From positions 1 to 32,998 of the forward strand of contig DYOW01000020.1 in assembly GCA_020720325.1 (NCBI GenBank): a stretch of DNA of 32,998 nt, given 5' to 3'. The notes beneath the pieces were generated by a model, which saw only the letters and a program-made list of their open reading frames with translations, did not search any database and was not told where the DNA came from. Origin of the DNA: Desulfobulbus propionicus. GTDB lineage: Bacteria; Desulfobacterota; Dissulfuribacteria; Dissulfuribacterales; DYOW01. This document shows positions 17,041 to 25,964 of this stretch, piece by piece; the first letter of the stretch is position 1, and each line of letters begins with the position of its first letter. The translations under genes and the position numbers were made by a program.

Positions 17041-19806
17041 ATGTCAATAAAATCATTATCTAATCTTTTTTCTCCAAAAAATATCGCCATTCTTGGCTCT
17101 GATTTCAAAGTGGGAACCGCAGGAAGAGTGCTTCTTAATAATTTAATCCAGGACAACTATGAAGGGGCAATATATCCTGTATTTTCAGAAAAACCCGCTG
17201 TTCTGGGGATTCCTGCCTTTAAAAATCCCGAAGACCTGCCGGATGACATCCAGCTTGCAGTCCTTGCAGGAGAACCTGAAAAATATTTGCAACATCTGGA
17301 TGCCTGCAAGAAAAAAAAGATAAAATCTATCCTTCTTTTTGGATATGATTTCAGACACAGAATAAAAGAACCCGACAAACTGCTTGCTGAAATAAAAAAG
17401 ATATGCAATGAAAATAACATAAGATGTCTGGGTCCCAATTCATTTGGTTTTATCCGCCCAAAACACAATCTTAATGTAAGCACCATAAAACAGGGATTAC
17501 AGCCCGGAAACCTTGCTTTCATCACCCAGAGCGCCACCCTTGGCTCAGCAATTCTCGACTATGCCCTTAAAAAAAATATAGGTTTCAGCCTGTTTATCTC
17601 CCTTGGAGCGCAGATAGACATTGATTGTTCCGAGCTTATTGATTTTCTTGCGACTGACCCGGATACAAAGGGAATAGTCCTTCACCTTGAATCAATAAAA
17701 AAAGGAAGGCAATTTATAGGGGCTGCCAGGTCTTTTGCAATGGTAAAACCCATTATAGCGGTAAAAGGTGGAAAATTTACCGAATCCTCCCAGGTTTCCC
17801 TTACCCATTCAGGCACAATGGCAGGAGAGGACAGGGTTTATGACGCTGTGTTTAAAAGGGCTGGAATTGTAAGAGTTGACCAGGTCTTTGAACTTTTTAA
17901 TGTTTCTGAGGCGCTTTCATGGCAAAAACCACCTGCAGGAAACAAACTTTTAATAGTAACAAATGCCGGAGGTCCCGCTGTTCTTGCCACTGATAAACTC
18001 ATAAGTTCAGGAGGCGCCCTTGCAAAATTGACAGATGACACCCTTGCCAAGTTAAATAAAGTCCTTCCTCCCTTCTGGTCTTCTGCAAATCCCATAGATG
18101 TGCTCTCAGACGCATCCCCCCAGCGAATTGCAAATGTCACTGAGATATGTCTTAATGCAAAGGAAACCAATGGAACGCTTGTAATCCTTACACCCCAGTT
18201 TGCCACCCAATCCATATTAACAGCCCAGGAAGTGGTGAATCTCTCAAAAAAATATCCGCAAAAAACCCTTCTTGCATGCTGGATGGGCGCTGGCGATATG
18301 GAAACAGCAAGAAAAATACTTGATGAAGGAAAAACGCCTAATTATGAAGCCCCTGAAGAGGCTGTCAAAAGCTTTGTCTTCATGCATAATTATAAGAAAA
18401 ATATCTCCCATCTCTATGAAACCCCCGCAAATATCCTTGCAGACCTTATCCCTGACTATGACGATGTGGAAAAAATCATAAATAACGCCGGGCTTGAAGG
18501 AAGAATAATCCTTAGCGAAAGGGAGTCAAAAGAAATTTTAAGCTGTTACGGTATTTTTTCACCTGAATTAAGACTGGCAAAAACCCCGGAACAAGCCCTT
18601 GCAATTGCAAAAGAAATAGGATTTCCTGTGGCAATGAAGATTGAATCCCCGCAGGTTACACATAAATTAAGCGTGAAAGGGATTTTTTTACATGTAAAAG
18701 AAGAAGAGGTTATCCAAACCTTTAATGCAATAAGCGAAAATCTGGCTAAATTTGCCCCTGACGCGCAATTTTCAGGGGTGACAGTTCAAAAAATGATTCT
18801 ATGGACAGGTTATGAGCTGACTATAGGCGCTAAAAAGGATACAACCTTTGGTTCGGTTATTCTGTTTGGCGCTGGCGGTGTGCTTGTTGAGGCAATAAAG
18901 GATTATGCAGTGGCGCTTCCACCCTTAAATCAAACCCTTGTAAAAAGACTCTTTGAAGAGACAAAAGTATATAATTTTCTTAAATACAGCGCCCGTTTCA
19001 CTCCTAATCTTGATAAACTTGAAGAGGTGATACTTAGATTTTCCCAGCTTATATGTGATTTTCCAATTATAAAAGAGGTGGATATCAATCCTTTCTATCT
19101 TGGGGAAAAAGACTACCTGTGTCTTGACGCAAGGATAATCCTTGAAGATGATGTAAAACATGGTTATAAAAAACCTCTTGGGGCATTTTGTCCTGCAAAT
19201 CTTGTCATCTGCCCCTATCCTATAAATTATATTGACAGCGCCATTGATAAAGACGGCAAGACCTTTATTGTAAGACCCATAAAACCCGAAGACGAGCCTC
19301 TTCTTTATGAACTTTTCAATACATTTTCCCCTGAGACAATAAGAATGAGATTTTTCCGTCCGCTTACTGAAATTTCCCACGAACAAATGGTTAAATACTG
19401 CCATCTTGATTATGACAGAGAAATTGCCCTTCTTGGCGCTTATCATGAAGACAATAAAGAAGTTGTCATGGGGGTTGGAAGGCTTATAATCTTTCCGGAT
19501 AATGAATATGCGGAATATGCGGTGGTTATTGGGGATCCGTGGCAGGGAAAAGGCATCGCGGGCATTCTTACTAAGAAATGCCTTAAAATTGCCATGAAAA
19601 AAGGACTAAAACATGTTGATATGGATGTGTTAAAAGAAAATTCCCCGATGAGAGGACTTGCGGTTAAATTTAATTTTATTGAGATAAAACAGGATGAAGA
19701 TGAAGGCATCATTAAATACAGGCTGTTTTTGGATAATACAGATATATTAAACCAAAATATTAAGACAAACGGCAAAAAGCCCAGAAAAGGTATTTCAAAA
19801 AAATAA
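17041..19806 (+). CDS. ADP-forming acetyl-CoA synthetase fused to a GNAT acetyltransferase (Pat-like)
   Basis: A 921-residue fusion. Residues 1-450: CoA-binding and succinyl-CoA-ligase-like domains (IAILGS near 15, CLGPNSFGF near 130). Residues about 490-715: ATP-grasp subunit (SERESKEILSCYGI, then PVAMKIESPQVTHK, FGAGGVLVEA, IKEVDINPF). Residues about 735-890: GNAT domain with acetyl-CoA motif DPWQGKGIAGIL. The order ACS-ATP-grasp-GNAT is that of the lysine acetyltransferase Pat/PatZ. In Pat the synthetase part is considered inactive because its catalytic His is lost; here His256 (THSGTMAG) and the second His (TQVTHK-type, THK) are both kept, so it may make or consume acetyl-CoA and also acetylate proteins. 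Its TAA overlaps the next ATG by 1 nt. Confidence 0.88.
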   Translation: MSIKSLSNLFSPKNIAILGSDFKVGTAGRVLLNNLIQDNYEGAIYPVFSEKPAVLGIPAFKNPEDLPDDIQLAVLAGEPEKYLQHLDACKKKKIKSILLFGYDFRHRIKEPDKLLAEIKKICNENNIRCLGPNSFGFIRPKHNLNVSTIKQGLQPGNLAFITQSATLGSAILDYALKKNIGFSLFISLGAQIDIDCSELIDFLATDPDTKGIVLHLESIKKGRQFIGAARSFAMVKPIIAVKGGKFTESSQVSLTHSGTMAGEDRVYDAVFKRAGIVRVDQVFELFNVSEALSWQKPPAGNKLLIVTNAGGPAVLATDKLISSGGALAKLTDDTLAKLNKVLPPFWSSANPIDVLSDASPQRIANVTEICLNAKETNGTLVILTPQFATQSILTAQEVVNLSKKYPQKTLLACWMGAGDMETARKILDEGKTPNYEAPEEAVKSFVFMHNYKKNISHLYETPANILADLIPDYDDVEKIINNAGLEGRIILSERESKEILSCYGIFSPELRLAKTPEQALAIAKEIGFPVAMKIESPQVTHKLSVKGIFLHVKEEEVIQTFNAISENLAKFAPDAQFSGVTVQKMILWTGYELTIGAKKDTTFGSVILFGAGGVLVEAIKDYAVALPPLNQTLVKRLFEETKVYNFLKYSARFTPNLDKLEEVILRFSQLICDFPIIKEVDINPFYLGEKDYLCLDARIILEDDVKHGYKKPLGAFCPANLVICPYPINYIDSAIDKDGKTFIVRPIKPEDEPLLYELFNTFSPETIRMRFFRPLTEISHEQMVKYCHLDYDREIALLGAYHEDNKEVVMGVGRLIIFPDNEYAEYAVVIGDPWQGKGIAGILTKKCLKIAMKKGLKHVDMDVLKENSPMRGLAVKFNFIEIKQDEDEGIIKYRLFLDNTDILNQNIKTNGKKPRKGISKK

Positions 19807-20780
19807 TGTCTGACTTCTATAAAATAAATATAGTGACACACGATATCTACAGACTGCATGATACGAGCGGAGATAAATATCATCCTGAAAAGCCCGGGCG
19901 AATAACCTCTGTAGTTGAACATCTCAAAAAAGGGATGCTTTCCACAAACTTAAATTTTATTGAAGCCAATTGCCCTGAAAGGGAATGGATATTAAAGATA
20001 CATAATAACAATTATCTCCTGCGTTTTGAGGAGGCATGCCTTGCGGGAAAGGAATATCTTGCCCATCCTGACAACAGGATTTCATATAATTCCTTTGAGG
20101 CAGCCTTTTATTCCTGCGGTTCAGGCTTGACTTCAATAGATTATGTTGAAAAACAGACAGATGGAGTATTTTTCTGCCTTTCAAGACCACCGGGACATCA
20201 TTCTGAAACATCCCTTGCCCTTGGATTTTGTTTTATTAATAATGTTGCGGTTGCGGCAAAATACTGGCAGGAAAAATATAATAGAGAACGGATTTTTGTG
20301 CTTGATTTTGACGCCCATCACGGAAACGGCATTCAGGCAAGCTTTGAGGAAGATCCATCTGTATTTTATGCAAGCATCCATGAACATCCCACATTTAGTT
20401 TTCCCGGCACAGGTTATGCTGACGACAACGGAAGCGGAAAAGGCATTGGCGCGACATTAAATATTCCCTTAAAGCCTGGTTCAGGCGATAAGCAGGTTCT
20501 TGAAATAATGGATACAACTATTTATGATGCTTTGGAAAGGTTTAAGCCTGATGCGATCATTGTCGCGGCAGGATTTGACGCCCATATTGATGATGATATG
20601 TCAGGACTTGCCTTTTCAACAAGGCTTTATGGAGAAATCGGAATGAGGCTTTTTGTGATGGCAAAAAAATTCTGTGATGGTAGAATTATAAGCATATTGG
20701 AGGGCGGCTATAATATCAACGCGCTTTGTAACAGCATTGAGACATATCTGGCGGGTATATCTATTAAAACAGGAGAATAG
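19806..20780 (+). CDS. acuC: Class I histone-deacetylase family protein, AcuC-like
   Basis: A 324-residue zinc deacetylase fold. Catalytic and metal residues are all present: RPPGHH with His131-His132, FDAHHGNG with Asp169 and His171 as zinc ligands, GFDAH with Asp258, and LEGGYN with transition-state Tyr302. Expected role: removing acetyl groups from lysines, here most likely those placed by the GNAT partner. It starts at the last base of the preceding stop (ATG 19806), so expression is coupled with the acetyltransferase. In Bacillus, AcuC reverses AcuA acetylation of acetyl-CoA synthetase and AcuB lies beside it; the same trio is arranged here. The alternative, acetoin utilisation or polyamine deacetylation, cannot be excluded from sequence. 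Confidence 0.9.
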   Translation: MSDFYKINIVTHDIYRLHDTSGDKYHPEKPGRITSVVEHLKKGMLSTNLNFIEANCPEREWILKIHNNNYLLRFEEACLAGKEYLAHPDNRISYNSFEAAFYSCGSGLTSIDYVEKQTDGVFFCLSRPPGHHSETSLALGFCFINNVAVAAKYWQEKYNRERIFVLDFDAHHGNGIQASFEEDPSVFYASIHEHPTFSFPGTGYADDNGSGKGIGATLNIPLKPGSGDKQVLEIMDTTIYDALERFKPDAIIVAAGFDAHIDDDMSGLAFSTRLYGEIGMRLFVMAKKFCDGRIISILEGGYNINALCNSIETYLAGISIKTGE

Positions 20781-20784
20781 CAAT

Positions 20785-21426
20785 ATGTATATATCTGAAT
20801 ATATGACAAAAGACCCTTTAAAAATAAATCCTGACCTGACCATATCTCAGGCAAGAGAAATTTTGGATTCAAAACACTTCAGACATCTTCCTGTTGTTGA
20901 TGATAACGGGCGCCTTCTCGGTATCATAACAGACAGGGATATAAGGTCTGCCTATCCTTCCTCCCTTGCCCCGGATGAAGAAAGAAAAAGAACCCTTGAA
21001 CAGACAACAATAACCCCGGTAGGCTCAATAATGAGCAGGGTATTATCAACCCTTTCCCCTGATGCCACCCTTGATGACGCTCTTCTATTCTTCAGAAAAC
21101 ATATTGTCGGGGCAATTCCAATTACCGATAAGGAAAATAAACTTGTTGGAATTTTTTCAATAAGGGATATGATTAAAGCATACAGTAATATCTTTGGATT
21201 GGGTGAGAAAGGAAGCCAGTTAATTGCCGTTGAAGACGACCTTGACAAAAAGAATATAATGAGCCTTATTGTAAGGGTTTTGGAAAGCAATAATATATCT
21301 TTTACACGGATTATGCGCACAGGCAGCAGGATTTATATAAGGGCGCAATCCTATAATATAAAATCCATAAAGGCAGCGCTGGAATCAGAAGGACTTAATC
21401 TTATTGAAAGAAAGGTGGACGTATGA
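20785..21426 (+). CDS. acuB: CBS-CBS-ACT domain protein, AcuB-like
   Basis: A 213-residue protein with two CBS domains (about 1-60 and 76-135; each with RHLPVVDDNGRLLGIITDRDI or GAIPITDKENKLVGIFSIRDM) and a C-terminal ACT-like domain (about 145-212, beginning GSQLIAVEDDL). CBS pairs bind adenosine nucleotides, ACT domains bind small ligands, so it may sense energy state. The AcuB layout is exactly this. Start: ATG 20785 with AGGAG at 20771-20775 (9 nt); an upstream in-frame ATG at 20737 lies inside acuC and gives a non-homologous prefix, so I rejected it. Its TGA overlaps the next ATG (ATGA, 21423-21426). Confidence 0.88.
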   Translation: MYISEYMTKDPLKINPDLTISQAREILDSKHFRHLPVVDDNGRLLGIITDRDIRSAYPSSLAPDEERKRTLEQTTITPVGSIMSRVLSTLSPDATLDDALLFFRKHIVGAIPITDKENKLVGIFSIRDMIKAYSNIFGLGEKGSQLIAVEDDLDKKNIMSLIVRVLESNNISFTRIMRTGSRIYIRAQSYNIKSIKAALESEGLNLIERKVDV

Positions 21427-23513
21427 AATACCTTCTATATCCTGAATCGGTTTGTGTCATAGGGGCATCAAGAAATCCCCAGAAACTCGGCTATGCAATA
21501 CTTAAAAATGTTATTGACAGCGGTTTTAAAGGGGATATCTTCCCCGTTAATCCATCTGGCGAGGAAATTCTGGGGTATAAATCCTTTCCTGATGTAAAAT
21601 CCATAAAAGACAGGGCGCATCTTGCAGTAATCACAATTCCTTCAAGGTTTGTGATTGAAACCATAAAAGAATGCGGTGAAAACGGCGTTAAAGCAATAGT
21701 TGTAATATCCGCAGGTTTCAGGGAAACAGGGCACAAAGGGTTAATGGCTGAGATGGAAATCGCAAGGCTTGCTGAAGAATATAATATGGATATTGTTGGG
21801 CCCAACTGTCTTGGTTTAATAAACACACATACCCCCGTAAATGCGTCATTTGCGGCTGGAATGCCATTAAAAGGCAATATTGCCTTTATGTCACAGTCAG
21901 GGGCATTATGCACTGCAGTTCTTGATATGTCCTTTAATCTTGGAATAGGATTTTCAACATTTGTTAGTCTTGGGAACAAGGCGCATATTAATGAAGTGGA
22001 TTTTCTCTCTGCCTTTGACAATGACCCAAACAGCAGCGTAGCGCTTGCATATCTTGAGGGTATCTCAAACGGCGGTCTTTTTATTAAAAAAGCAAGAGAC
22101 ATAAGCAAAAGAAAACCAATAGTTGCCATAAAATCAGGCACAACTGACGCTGGTTCAAGGGCTGTAAGCTCCCATACCGGCACCCTTGCAGGAAGCGAAA
22201 AGGCATATGAGGCTGCCTTTAAACAGGCTGGTGTCATAAGGGCAGGAACAGTATCAGACCTTTTTGACATATCCTGGGCTTTTTCCACCCAACCTTTGCC
22301 TACCACAGAGAGAATCGCAATAGTGACAAATGCAGGCGGACCTGGCATACTTGCGACAGATATGGCTGAAAGAAAAGGATTAAAGCTTGCATCCCTCACA
22401 TCCGAGACAATGGAAGAATTAGCAAAATCGCTTCCTTCTGCTGCAAGTGTGCTTAACCCTGTTGATGTCCTTGGAGACGCGCTCTCAGACAGATATAAAG
22501 TCGCAATAAAACTTGTCCTTGAAGACCCCAATGTGGGCGGTGTAATAGTCATACTAACTCCGCAGATAATGACTGAAATCGAAGAAACAGCAAATGTCAT
22601 TATTGAACTTTCAAAACAGTATAATAAACCCATTCTTACAAGTTTTATGGGTGATGCCACAACAGGCAAAGGGGTCGCCATACTTTCCCGAAACAAAATC
22701 CCCAATTATCCCATTCCCGAACGCGCTGTTTATGCCCTTAAGGAAATGGTGAATTACAGGCTCTGGCAGGATGTTCAGGACGAAGAAATTACAGAATTTG
22801 AATTTGATAATGAAAAAATAAATAATATCTTTCAAAAAGCCCTCTCCAAAGGAAGACTTACTCTTGGCGAAACAGACGCAAAACAGATAATGGAGGCAAT
22901 AGGCATGAAAGTCCCCCCTTCCAAACTCTGTTCGTCTGCAGATGAAGCGATTAAGTTTGCCGATGAGATTGGCTATCCTGTGGTTATGAAGATAGCCTCC
23001 CCTGACATACTTCATAAAACCGATGTTGGTGGAGTAAAACTTGATGTAAGAACTCCCGAAGATGTCAGAGACAGTTTTGACCTTATAACCATGAGGTCAA
23101 TGAGATATATGCCAAATGCCGAAATATGGGGTTGCAATGTGCAGAAACAACTTCCAAAGGCAAGGGAAATGATTATCGGAGTCAACAGAGATACTCAGTT
23201 TGGTCCCCTTGTTATGGCAGGACTTGGCGGCATATATGTTGAAGTATTAAAGGATGTCGCATTCAGAATAGCGCCTTTTTCAAGAAAAACAGCAAGGGAG
23301 ATGCTCTTTGAGATAAAAACAATTAATCTCATAAGAGGAGTAAGGGGACAGGCGCCCGGAGATATTAACGGCATTATTGACACCCTTATCAGGATATCAC
23401 AACTTGTCACAAGATTTCCAAATATTGTTGAGCTTGATATTAATCCCCTCTTTGTTTATGAAGAAGGCAAAGGTGTTGTGGGACTTGATATGAGACTTGC
23501 ATTAAAACCATAA
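21423..23513 (+). CDS. Acetate/acyl-CoA ligase (ADP-forming), fused alpha-beta subunits
   Basis: A 696-residue acyl-CoA synthetase that converts acyl-CoA, ADP and phosphate to acid, ATP and CoA, and the reverse; in anaerobes it conserves energy from acetyl-CoA. Alpha part: CoA-binding domain (VCVIGASRNPQKLGYA), VGPNCLGLIN near residue 125, and the phosphorylated His251 in AVSSHTGTLAGS. Beta part from about 460: ATP-grasp domain (PPSKLCSSADEAIKFADEIGYPVVMK, then SPDILHKTDVGGVKL with the second His, and LDINPLFVYEEG near the end). No GNAT domain. It overlaps acuB by 4 nt. The substrate (acetate or branched/aryl acids) cannot be told. Confidence 0.92.
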   Translation: MKYLLYPESVCVIGASRNPQKLGYAILKNVIDSGFKGDIFPVNPSGEEILGYKSFPDVKSIKDRAHLAVITIPSRFVIETIKECGENGVKAIVVISAGFRETGHKGLMAEMEIARLAEEYNMDIVGPNCLGLINTHTPVNASFAAGMPLKGNIAFMSQSGALCTAVLDMSFNLGIGFSTFVSLGNKAHINEVDFLSAFDNDPNSSVALAYLEGISNGGLFIKKARDISKRKPIVAIKSGTTDAGSRAVSSHTGTLAGSEKAYEAAFKQAGVIRAGTVSDLFDISWAFSTQPLPTTERIAIVTNAGGPGILATDMAERKGLKLASLTSETMEELAKSLPSAASVLNPVDVLGDALSDRYKVAIKLVLEDPNVGGVIVILTPQIMTEIEETANVIIELSKQYNKPILTSFMGDATTGKGVAILSRNKIPNYPIPERAVYALKEMVNYRLWQDVQDEEITEFEFDNEKINNIFQKALSKGRLTLGETDAKQIMEAIGMKVPPSKLCSSADEAIKFADEIGYPVVMKIASPDILHKTDVGGVKLDVRTPEDVRDSFDLITMRSMRYMPNAEIWGCNVQKQLPKAREMIIGVNRDTQFGPLVMAGLGGIYVEVLKDVAFRIAPFSRKTAREMLFEIKTINLIRGVRGQAPGDINGIIDTLIRISQLVTRFPNIVELDINPLFVYEEGKGVVGLDMRLALKP

Positions 23514-23527
23514 ATTAAGGAGGAAAA

Positions 23528-24592
23528 ATGATTCCCATATATATTACATCAACTCAGAATTTTTCAGGAAAAAGCGCTATTTGTGTTGGTCTTATCAAAA
23601 AGCTTCTGGCAAAAGGCTTAAAAACCGGATATATAAAACCTTTCAGCGCTCATGCAAAATATTTTAACGGCAAATTGATAGATGAAGACACTGTTTTTAT
23701 AAGAGATATATTTGAAATGCCCGAACCTGTTGAAAAACTCTGTCCTGTCATGCTTTCCGACAGGGTGGTTGAAGATATAGTAAAGACCGGCGAACACAAT
23801 TATAAGGAAGTAATTCTTAATGCCTTTAAGGACATATCTTCCAATAAAGATGTGATGATTATTGAAGGCGCATCAAATCAAAGGGAAGGCTGGCTTTTGG
23901 ATCTCTCACCTTTAAAGATAGTTAAAGAATTTGATGCAAAGGTATTCGCAATAGTACCATTTGAAAACAATCTGCAGTTTATGGATGATGTCCTCACACT
24001 AAAGGGAAAATTCGAAGACAGGCTTGTTGGAGTTATTCTTAACAGGATTCCAAAAATAAAGCTTAATACAGTTAATGAAAGTTTCAGACCATATATAGAA
24101 TCAAAGGGGATCCGCGTGCTTGGAGTATTTCCAAAAGAAGTTGTTTTGATGTCAGTAAGCGTTCAGGAAATACTGGAAGGTCTGGGAGGCGAAATTCTCT
24201 GCGCCAGAGAAAATATCAATGAACTTGTGGAGCATCTTATGATCGGGGCAATGAGCGTGGACAGCGCTCTGAGATATTTCAGAAGGCATTCCAACAAGGC
24301 GGTAATAACGGGTGGAGACAGACCGGATGTCCAGCTTGCAGCCCTTGAAACCTCTACAAAATGCCTTATCTTAACAGGAAATCTAAGACCAAATCCAATG
24401 ATTGTCGCAAAGGCAGAGGATATGGGCGTGCCTATTATACTCACCCAATACGATACATTAACAACTGTTGAGATAATCGAATCATTTTTCGGAAAGACCA
24501 GATTCCACCAGAAGAAAAAAATCATGGCCTTTGAAGAAATGATGGATAAAAATCTTGATTTTGATAGACTTTATTCAGTATTAATGATATAA
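23528..24592 (+). CDS. BioD-like/DRTGG-domain protein (phosphotransacetylase N-terminal-like)
   Basis: A 354-residue cytosolic protein with two parts of the long-form phosphotransacetylase: an N-terminal AAA_26 (dethiobiotin-synthetase-like) P-loop domain, whose loop reads YITSTQNFSGKSAICVGL (about residues 5-22), and a C-terminal DRTGG domain (about 215-320; AVITGGDRPDVQLAAL). The catalytic acetyl-phosphate transferase domain is absent. Such stand-alone proteins are thought to be regulatory, but function is not known to me. A strong AAGGAGG at 23517-23523 precedes the ATG. Position directly after the ADP-forming ligase supports a link to acetyl-CoA/acetyl phosphate metabolism. Confidence 0.85.
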   Translation: MIPIYITSTQNFSGKSAICVGLIKKLLAKGLKTGYIKPFSAHAKYFNGKLIDEDTVFIRDIFEMPEPVEKLCPVMLSDRVVEDIVKTGEHNYKEVILNAFKDISSNKDVMIIEGASNQREGWLLDLSPLKIVKEFDAKVFAIVPFENNLQFMDDVLTLKGKFEDRLVGVILNRIPKIKLNTVNESFRPYIESKGIRVLGVFPKEVVLMSVSVQEILEGLGGEILCARENINELVEHLMIGAMSVDSALRYFRRHSNKAVITGGDRPDVQLAALETSTKCLILTGNLRPNPMIVAKAEDMGVPIILTQYDTLTTVEIIESFFGKTRFHQKKKIMAFEEMMDKNLDFDRLYSVLMI

Positions 24593-24621: not shown

Positions 24622-25101
24622 ATGGAAAAAGTTACTGTTCAGAAAGGAAAATTTATAATTAGTAATGATACAACGATAGAGATCGTTACAGAATTCCTTG
24701 GCGCATCTCTTGCTGTTATTATCTATGACAGGGTTGAAAAAATCGGAGGAATTTTAGTCTGTATGATTCCCAAAAGCCTCATGCTTGTTATGGGTAATGA
24801 TAAAAACGTAAGACATGGACTTAACACTGGTCTTCCTGCCCTTTTTAAGGGATTTATGCCAAATTCCAAAAAAGAAAATTTTGAAATTTATCTTGTGGGC
24901 GCAGGCTCTTTTCTAAGCTCTCCCCCACAGTTTGATATCGGAGACCAACTTTACAGAACTGCGACACATATCCTTACAAAAAATAAATTTGAGATAAAGG
25001 GTGAGCATATTAAATGGCAGATAAACAGATCTGCGCTTCTTAATATTGAATCAGGAGAAGTAAAAATAAGACTCACCGACGGTCAGGAGATCAAATTATG
25101 A
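24622..25101 (+). CDS. CheD-like protein lacking the catalytic Cys and His
   Basis: A 159-residue protein aligning by eye to chemoreceptor glutamine deamidase CheD: LGASLAVIIYDRVEKIGGILVCMIP near residues 26-50, then LYRTATHILTKNKFEIKGEHI, and GEVKIRLTDGQEI at the end. CheD uses a Cys in a G-S-C-V motif (Cys27 in Thermotoga) and a His in GGxxH (His44). Here these positions are Ser29 (LGAS-L) and Val46 (GGILVC), so deamidase activity is unlikely; a scaffold or binding role is likelier. No chemotaxis genes are present in the window. It overlaps the downstream HDOD gene (ATGA, 25098-25101), indicating joint function. Confidence 0.78.
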   Translation: MEKVTVQKGKFIISNDTTIEIVTEFLGASLAVIIYDRVEKIGGILVCMIPKSLMLVMGNDKNVRHGLNTGLPALFKGFMPNSKKENFEIYLVGAGSFLSSPPQFDIGDQLYRTATHILTKNKFEIKGEHIKWQINRSALLNIESGEVKIRLTDGQEIKL

Positions 25102-25964
25102 AAGGCGATACAGTAGTTATAGATACATCACTTGAGCATATATTTGAACATATAAACCAGCTTCCTGTTTTTCCAAAGGTTGTATTTAAGGCATTAAAGC
25201 TTCTTGACGACCCTGATGCAAATCTGAAAGAACTTGCGGACCTCATAAGATATGACCAGGGGTTAAACGCCAATTTTTTAAGACTTGCCAATTCAGCCCG
25301 TTTCGGACTTTCAAGGCAGGTGACACGTCTTGACATGGCCCTTGCCCTTCTTGGCATAGATCAGATAAAAGAAGTCCTTCTTGTCAGCGCCGCCAAACCA
25401 TATCTTGACAAACCTCTTCAGGGATATGGAATGTCAGGTTTTGAGCTCTGGACACATTCCCTTGCAATTACAGTGGTAAGCGAGGTTGTTAGCCGTAAAA
25501 TGGGAATACAGGATTCCACCACGCTTTTTACCGCTTGTCTGATGCATGACATTGGAAAAGTTGCAATGAATGTGCAAATAGGCCTTAAAAACAGTGAAAT
25601 ACTTCAACTTGTTCATCAGGAAAATGTTTCTTTCAATGAGGCTGAATGGAAGGTTGTTGGCGGGGATCACGCTGTTGTTGGCTCAGAGATTTTAAGACAA
25701 TGGGAATTTCCCTTTGAGATAGTGCGCGCTGTGAGAAACCATCATGACCCTGACCTTTACATACAGGACGAACTATCCCTCTGGCTGTCATCCTGCAACA
25801 CCATGACAACCCTTATGGGGCTTTCCTACGGACTTGATACCTTTATGTATAAAATACACCCTGATTTACCCAAAAAACTTGGTCTGACATACGACTTTCT
25901 CTTTGATGTGCTTCAGGATTCAGTGATTGAATTTGAAAAAACAAGAGACATGCTTTATTTATAA
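25098..25964 (+). CDS. HDOD domain protein
   Basis: A 288-residue protein in which the HDOD domain occupies about residues 10-210: HINQLPVFPKVVFKALKLLDDPDANLKELADLIRYDQGL, then SARFGLSRQVTRLDMALALLGIDQIKEVLL. An HD-like metal pattern occurs in the middle (LMHDIGKVAM near 150, and NHHDP near 215), more complete than in many HDOD proteins. These proteins act in signalling, cell-cycle and motility control in Deltaproteobacteria and relatives; no enzyme activity is proven for most. Translation is coupled to the CheD-like gene by a 4-nt overlap. No other signalling domain is fused. Confidence 0.88.
   Translation: MKGDTVVIDTSLEHIFEHINQLPVFPKVVFKALKLLDDPDANLKELADLIRYDQGLNANFLRLANSARFGLSRQVTRLDMALALLGIDQIKEVLLVSAAKPYLDKPLQGYGMSGFELWTHSLAITVVSEVVSRKMGIQDSTTLFTACLMHDIGKVAMNVQIGLKNSEILQLVHQENVSFNEAEWKVVGGDHAVVGSEILRQWEFPFEIVRAVRNHHDPDLYIQDELSLWLSSCNTMTTLMGLSYGLDTFMYKIHPDLPKKLGLTYDFLFDVLQDSVIEFEKTRDMLYL

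Follow-up and report, generated by a model that had tools for sequence, protein, structure and literature searches.

The gene at 17041-19806 on the forward strand of the window (the whole stretch of 32,998 nucleotides analysed here) encodes a Pat-like fusion protein, which probably acts as a Pat-type lysine acetyltransferase and as the writer of an acu-type module of reversible acetylation. The protein retains the two catalytic histidines of ADP-forming acetyl-CoA synthetases (ACDs), and its operon, with a putative writer, eraser and energy sensor and a separate, intact ACD, is more unusual than these retained histidines.

The open reading frame starts with ATG and codes for 921 residues, with an ACD-like domain (residues 1-701) and, C-terminal to it, a GNAT domain (about residues 737-895; 19249-19725). 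The Pfam matches were CoA_binding_2 (13-138), Succ_CoA_lig (155-292), Ligase_CoA_2 (304-435), ATP-grasp_5 (486-701) and GNAT (743/779-879). Type I acetyltransferases are defined by an ACD-like N-terminus of ~700 residues and a C-terminal GNAT domain (PMC6456759); the product of 17041-19806 has this architecture and was assigned to type I (class I-alpha). Both the catalytic Glu of the GNAT domain (E825, codon 19513-19515, in the column of PatZ E809) and the acetyl-CoA P-loop QGKGIAG were kept. The closest solved structures by sequence were full-length E. coli PatZ, 9it0 (E = 8e-145) and 9isq (E about 1e-144), followed by ADP-forming acyl-CoA synthetases. In a Foldseek search with the AlphaFold model (pLDDT 85.7, from an alignment of 27 sequences), PatZ 9it0 was the top match, with a TM-score of 0.87 over 902 columns, and 8wzu, DddX and ckcACD1 came next. 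Within the model, pLDDT fell below 50 in just one internal segment, 246-253, which adjoins H256 and would fit a mobile loop. Orthologs were 45-55% identical to the fusion across all domains.

Aligned with PatZ and the Pyrococcus ACD subunits, the protein carries both histidines on the catalytic columns, as the earlier note had claimed. H256 (THSGTMAG, codon 17806-17808) matched exactly the alpha-His column, i.e. the SHTG histidine of Pyrococcus PH0766 (2csu) and of the Nitrosopumilus 4HB-CoA synthetase Nmar_0206 (8wzu), and H541 in the THK motif (QVTHK, codon 18661-18663), the equivalent of the ATP-grasp (beta) histidine, matched the HK column of PH1789 (1wr2), ckcACD1 beta (4xyl_B) and 8wzu. 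E217 and D681, which we take to represent the catalytic Glu and Asp columns of the ACD family, were retained in the alignment as well. The two histidines of Nmar_0206 are H256, located on a swinging loop (S246-I266), and H535 of the ATP-grasp unit (PMC11494057). The equivalent of this swinging (phosphohistidine) loop in the fusion was placed at codons 246-266 (17776-17838), on the basis of the alignment, the low pLDDT and the Nmar_0206 loop. The contrast with PatZ that had been drawn for both sites stood for only one of them: in E. coli PatZ the alpha-His is deleted in the alignment (QRL----LNTTAG) but the beta-His is present (SPDIPHK), so one site differs, not two, and the beta-His was rejected as a mark separating the fusion from PatZ. 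The claim that the ACD domain of type I Pat proteins is regarded as inactive agrees with a review (PMC8556138): taking E. coli PatZ and Salmonella Pat as its cases, it calls the synthetase half of bacterial type I acetyltransferases catalytically inactive.

The retention of both histidines turned out not to be special to this fusion. They were kept in 77 of 80 ACD-GNAT fusions from loci of named genomes in many phyla (Bathyarchaeota, Chloroflexi, Bacteroidota, Planctomycetes, Nitrospirae, Verrucomicrobia and others; a sample chosen by similarity to the query, with two rows, L057 and L058, from the window's own order), and in 36 of 44 in an even draw of the window's phylum with its own order excluded. 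On these counts, the view of the histidine pair as unusual for the ACD-GNAT architecture was rejected. It is the window's order that is the unusual group, with both histidines kept in only 8 of its 20 fusions. The alpha-His was replaced by Arg or a gap in 11 of the 20 order orthologs, some of them with an unchanged operon (e.g. G006, G039, G029 and G020). In a maximum-likelihood tree, made by a quick search without the swinging-loop columns and with PatZ on a long branch, the fusions of the order formed one clade, and five alpha-His changes were found overall, three of them inside the order (G006, G012 and one subclade of family f10), which corresponds to about three independent losses within the order. 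Since the outgroups and most fusions carry the histidine, the simplest reading is that it is ancestral and was retained in the fusion; since orthologs have lost it repeatedly, in some cases with the same operon around it, it is dispensable for the function they share.

The beta-His was kept in eight of the nine order members with the alpha-His and in five of the eleven without it (Fisher p 0.07, uncorrected for phylogeny), and this co-retention comprised five independent pairs, too few to reach 0.05. It hints at a residual constraint, is not significant and is no proof of activity. L018, the G003 ortholog, has the alpha-His and an Arg in the beta-His column, which shows that one histidine can be lost without the other. 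The idea that the alpha-His is kept to compensate for a missing stand-alone ACD was unsupported, as the genome of the window has both; no stand-alone ACD was seen in G040-G042, which carry the histidine, nor in the members of family f10 that lack it.

Completeness of the active site was judged from 64 alignment columns in which conservation reached 95% or more across 24 non-redundant stand-alone ACDs, identified by sequence, and the Pyrococcus protein. The fusion kept 49 of these 64 positions (77%), PatZ 61%, the widespread fusions a mean of 92% and the fusions of the window's order a mean of 75%. Because the histidine pair and a mean of 92% of the ACD-invariant positions are kept, many fusions look catalytically complete. 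In the fusion studied here, AGFxE was changed to DFRH, SQSG to SQSA and GN to GA, and the GxRG loop was lost; the Gly of AGFxE was Asp in all 20 order members. Other fusions retain AGFxE, SQSG and GxRG. The GN change is of little weight, as it occurs in many of the widespread fusions too, just 31% of which keep the Asn. The fusion scored 403 bits against TIGR02717, the NCBIfam acetate-CoA ligase alpha model, under its cut-off of 567; it has the histidine pair of an active ACD and falls short of one both in invariant positions and in the NCBIfam equivalog score. As read from the alignment, the motif changes set the protein apart from the ACD pattern and do not amount to evidence of inactivity.

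The genes behind the fusion lie on the same strand. The Pat stop and the start of an HDAC gene (19806-20780) overlap in TAATG, and the product of the latter is a Zn-dependent deacetylase of the HDAC family (PF00850, 3.4e-87) in the position of AcuC. It is class II-like, with HDAC6 and HDAH as best PDB matches, and contains the motifs PGHH, DFDAHHGNG, GFDAH and EGGYN. An AcuB-like gene (20785-21426) likely has its true start at 20785, 4 bases past the HDAC stop (listed ORF start, 20737), and codes for a CBS pair (Bateman) and a C-terminal ACT-like domain. This protein matched Thermus TTHA0829 and the Bacillus-type AcuB by sequence, and in its model (two sequences, pLDDT 80) residues 144-209 had the ACT-type order beta-alpha-beta-beta-alpha-beta; in a Foldseek search the top 11 matches were all Geobacillus AcuB chains (9s52 among them), over the full length. 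Thus, both an AcuB with a CBS pair and an ACT domain and an HDAC-family deacetylase with Zn and active-site motifs are co-encoded with the fusion, as in an acu module. The AcuB-like stop overlaps in ATGA with the start of a stand-alone ACD of 696 residues (21423-23513; TIGR02717, 576 bits versus the cut-off of 567), which has both His and the Glu and Asp in the alignment columns. The next gene (23528-24592), which begins 14 bases past the ACD, encodes a PtaN-like protein (P-loop AAA_26 and DRTGG) that resembles the regulatory N-terminus of long phosphotransacetylases; it is without the phosphotransacetylase catalytic domain. The PtaN-like gene was also found 3' of the ACD in G003, G006, G007 and G016, the last two of which have the Pat fusion at another place or lack it. 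Genes for a CheD-like protein (24622-25101) and an HDOD-domain protein (25098-25964) continue in the same direction, overlap each other in ATGA and may belong to the same transcript. An Rfam search of the window gave no match.

The order Pat-HDAC-AcuB was found in G003, G004, G006, G010, G020, G023, G029, G033 and G039, with the ACD directly behind it in G003, G006 and G010; in G040, where both histidines are kept, neither HDAC nor AcuB adjoins the fusion. Further afield, an HDAC gene adjoins the fusion in about 15 of 78 loci, archaea and Bacteroidota included, suggesting that HDAC genes next to ACD-GNAT fusions are a recurring putative writer-eraser pair. Loci with the HDAC directly upstream of the fusion (L066, L067, L068, L073, L074, L081, L082, L083, L087, L092, L096, L100, L105 and L126) were mostly from archaea and Bacteroidota. 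In studies of Bacillus and Geobacillus proteins, AcuB was shown to bind adenine nucleotides and to inhibit the deacetylase AcuC (PMC13121692, PMC13039410). Whether Ap4A strengthens or relieves the inhibition of AcuC by AcuB is disputed between these two papers of 2026: in one, inhibition was observed with AMP and not with ATP or Ap4A (PMC13121692), in the other it was enhanced by Ap4A (PMC13039410).

The genome (2.44 Mb, 97.6% complete) contains only two ACD-type ORFs, both within this operon, and AckA had no match in it. One AcsA scored above the curated cut-off; it is complete, located on another contig (C193) and has the acetylatable motif TRSGKIMRR. A second AcsA-like fragment was seen at a contig end (G000:C11:2-811, L033). 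AcsA-family matches were present in all 60 relatives, in 51 of them over the cut-off.

Two sister families of the order, f2 and f9, have 3' of the stand-alone ACD a gene for a fusion of a 4-hydroxybutyrate/acetyl-CoA CoA-transferase with a GNAT domain (626 residues; PF02550, PF13336 and GNAT; L050:6320-8197 and L051:4071-5945, each directly after the ACD). In G015 (L051), the genes are ordered HDAC, AcuB, ACD and CoA-transferase-GNAT. Among 46 genomes of the order, 10 had the CoA-transferase-GNAT, 20 the ACD-GNAT and none both. Because two different acyl-CoA enzymes are joined to GNAT in similar gene company, these fusions suggest that the fused enzyme domain would supply or sense acyl-CoA for the GNAT domain. 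No paper describing CoA-transferase-GNAT fusions was found in a literature search confined largely to papers outside subscription.

The role of an acu-type writer, which we consider probable, is suggested by several of these findings: PatZ is the closest structure both by sequence and by fold, the GNAT Glu and P-loop are kept, the genes of the Pat-HDAC-AcuB-ACD series overlap or nearly abut, Pat-HDAC-AcuB recurs in relatives and an HDAC neighbour in other phyla, the AcuB-like protein matches Geobacillus AcuB along its whole length, AcsA carries TRSGKIMRR, some orthologs without the alpha-His keep the operon, ACD motifs that other fusions retain are missing in the clade, and CoA-transferase-GNAT takes the place of ACD-GNAT in f2 and f9. 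Against it count the remaining His pair, Glu and Asp, the non-significant hint of residual constraint in the co-retention of the histidines, the class II-like HDAC (Bacillus AcuC being class I) and G040, without HDAC or AcuB beside the fusion. As the writer, the fusion would acetylate AcsA and/or the neighbouring ACD and thereby control them, the HDAC-type protein would remove the acetylation, and the AcuB-like CBS-ACT protein would restrain the deacetylase according to the adenine nucleotide state; the substrates, the direction of regulation and the sensor role are what we infer here. PatZ and Salmonella Pat depend on their N-terminal domain for activity, and the domain of Salmonella Pat binds acetyl-CoA (PMC8556138). 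In line with what is reported for PatZ and SePat, the ACD-like N-terminus of the fusion would most likely act mainly in sensing acetyl-CoA (and possibly ATP or phosphate) and in oligomerisation. The two histidines would then be an ancestral feature still present, with residual synthetase or phospho-His chemistry possible. The literature search, confined largely to papers outside subscription, found no report of acetylation as a control on an ACD, which also counts against this reading.

Alternatively, the protein may be a true bifunctional enzyme, with an ACD part that makes or hydrolyses acetyl-CoA with ATP/ADP via phosphorylated H541 and H256, while the fused GNAT domain takes acetyl-CoA to acetylate proteins. 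The four retained residues (both His, E217 and D681), the frequency of the pair in related fusions (77/80 and 36/44) and the 92% of invariant positions in the widespread ones speak for this possibility. However, the fusion itself reaches only 77%, with AGFxE, SQSG and GN altered and the GxRG loop gone, its own order shows about three losses of the alpha-His, and a complete ACD is encoded within the same operon, and we find bifunctionality rather doubtful for this protein. The histidines could also serve as a switch, with autophosphorylation by ATP at H541/H256 setting the activity of the GNAT domain without net CoA-ester synthesis, so that ATP and acetyl-CoA would be read jointly. This would fit a pair that is kept while AGFxE, a motif of the CoA-binding half, is altered in 20 of 20 order members, and a partner that is of the adenine nucleotide sensor type (AcuB-like); yet the idea is purely inferential, 11 of 20 orthologs have Arg or a gap at the alpha-His, some with the same operon, and we regard it as very improbable.

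That the pair persists as a neutral remnant of a decaying pseudo-synthetase, without any part in chemistry or sensing, also seems very improbable to us. The alpha-His was indeed lost repeatedly and independently in the order, and other motifs are gone as well, but the domain is of full length and well folded in the model, its orthologs are 45-55% identical over all domains, and PatZ and SePat require their N-terminal domain for activity (PMC8556138). A bolder proposal, which we find rather doubtful, is that most ACD-GNAT fusions of bacteria and archaea, this one included, either work as bifunctional enzymes that link the synthesis of acetyl-CoA with protein acetylation within one chain or are ATP-driven phospho-His switches, and that here such a protein is the writer of an acu module controlling an ACD.

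Compared with known systems, the fusion shares with E. coli PatZ and Salmonella Pat the domain order, the full-length fold (TM 0.87 to 9it0), the GNAT Glu and P-loop and the beta-His, whereas PatZ is without the alpha-His and has 61% of the ACD-invariant residues (77% in the fusion), and the patZ gene adjoins no HDAC, AcuB or ACD gene. With the stand-alone ACDs (ckcACD1, Nmar_0206, PH0766/PH1789) it has in common the ACD domains and the His, Glu and Asp columns; these enzymes, however, have no GNAT domain, and the fusion is without AGFxE, SQSG, GN and GxRG and lies under the NCBIfam ACD cut-offs. The acu system of Bacillus (AcuA, AcuB, AcuC, AcsA) likewise combines an acetyltransferase, an HDAC-type deacetylase and a CBS-ACT AcuB, but the putative writer is a Pat-type fusion here and the small AcuA there, the deacetylase here is class II-like, and the synthetase of the operon is ADP-forming, with AcsA on another contig. 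The CoA-transferase-GNAT proteins (L050, L051) also present a GNAT domain fused to an acyl-CoA enzyme beside an ACD, in L051 with HDAC and AcuB as well; their N-terminal enzyme, in contrast, belongs to the 4-hydroxybutyrate/acetyl-CoA CoA-transferase family, not to the ACDs.

The general rule of inactive synthetase domains in type I Pat proteins looks unsafe: to judge by sequence, most fusions have both histidines and an almost complete active site, and the claim of inactivity is directly testable there. The operon suggests that ADP-forming acetyl-CoA synthetases, too, may come under reversible acetylation of the acu type; if true, an ACD would be regulated by acetylation, in an enzyme class for which the literature search found no such report. 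The order itself offers a natural series of orthologs with and without the histidine, together with the replacement by CoA-transferase-GNAT, for probing the purpose of the fused domain.
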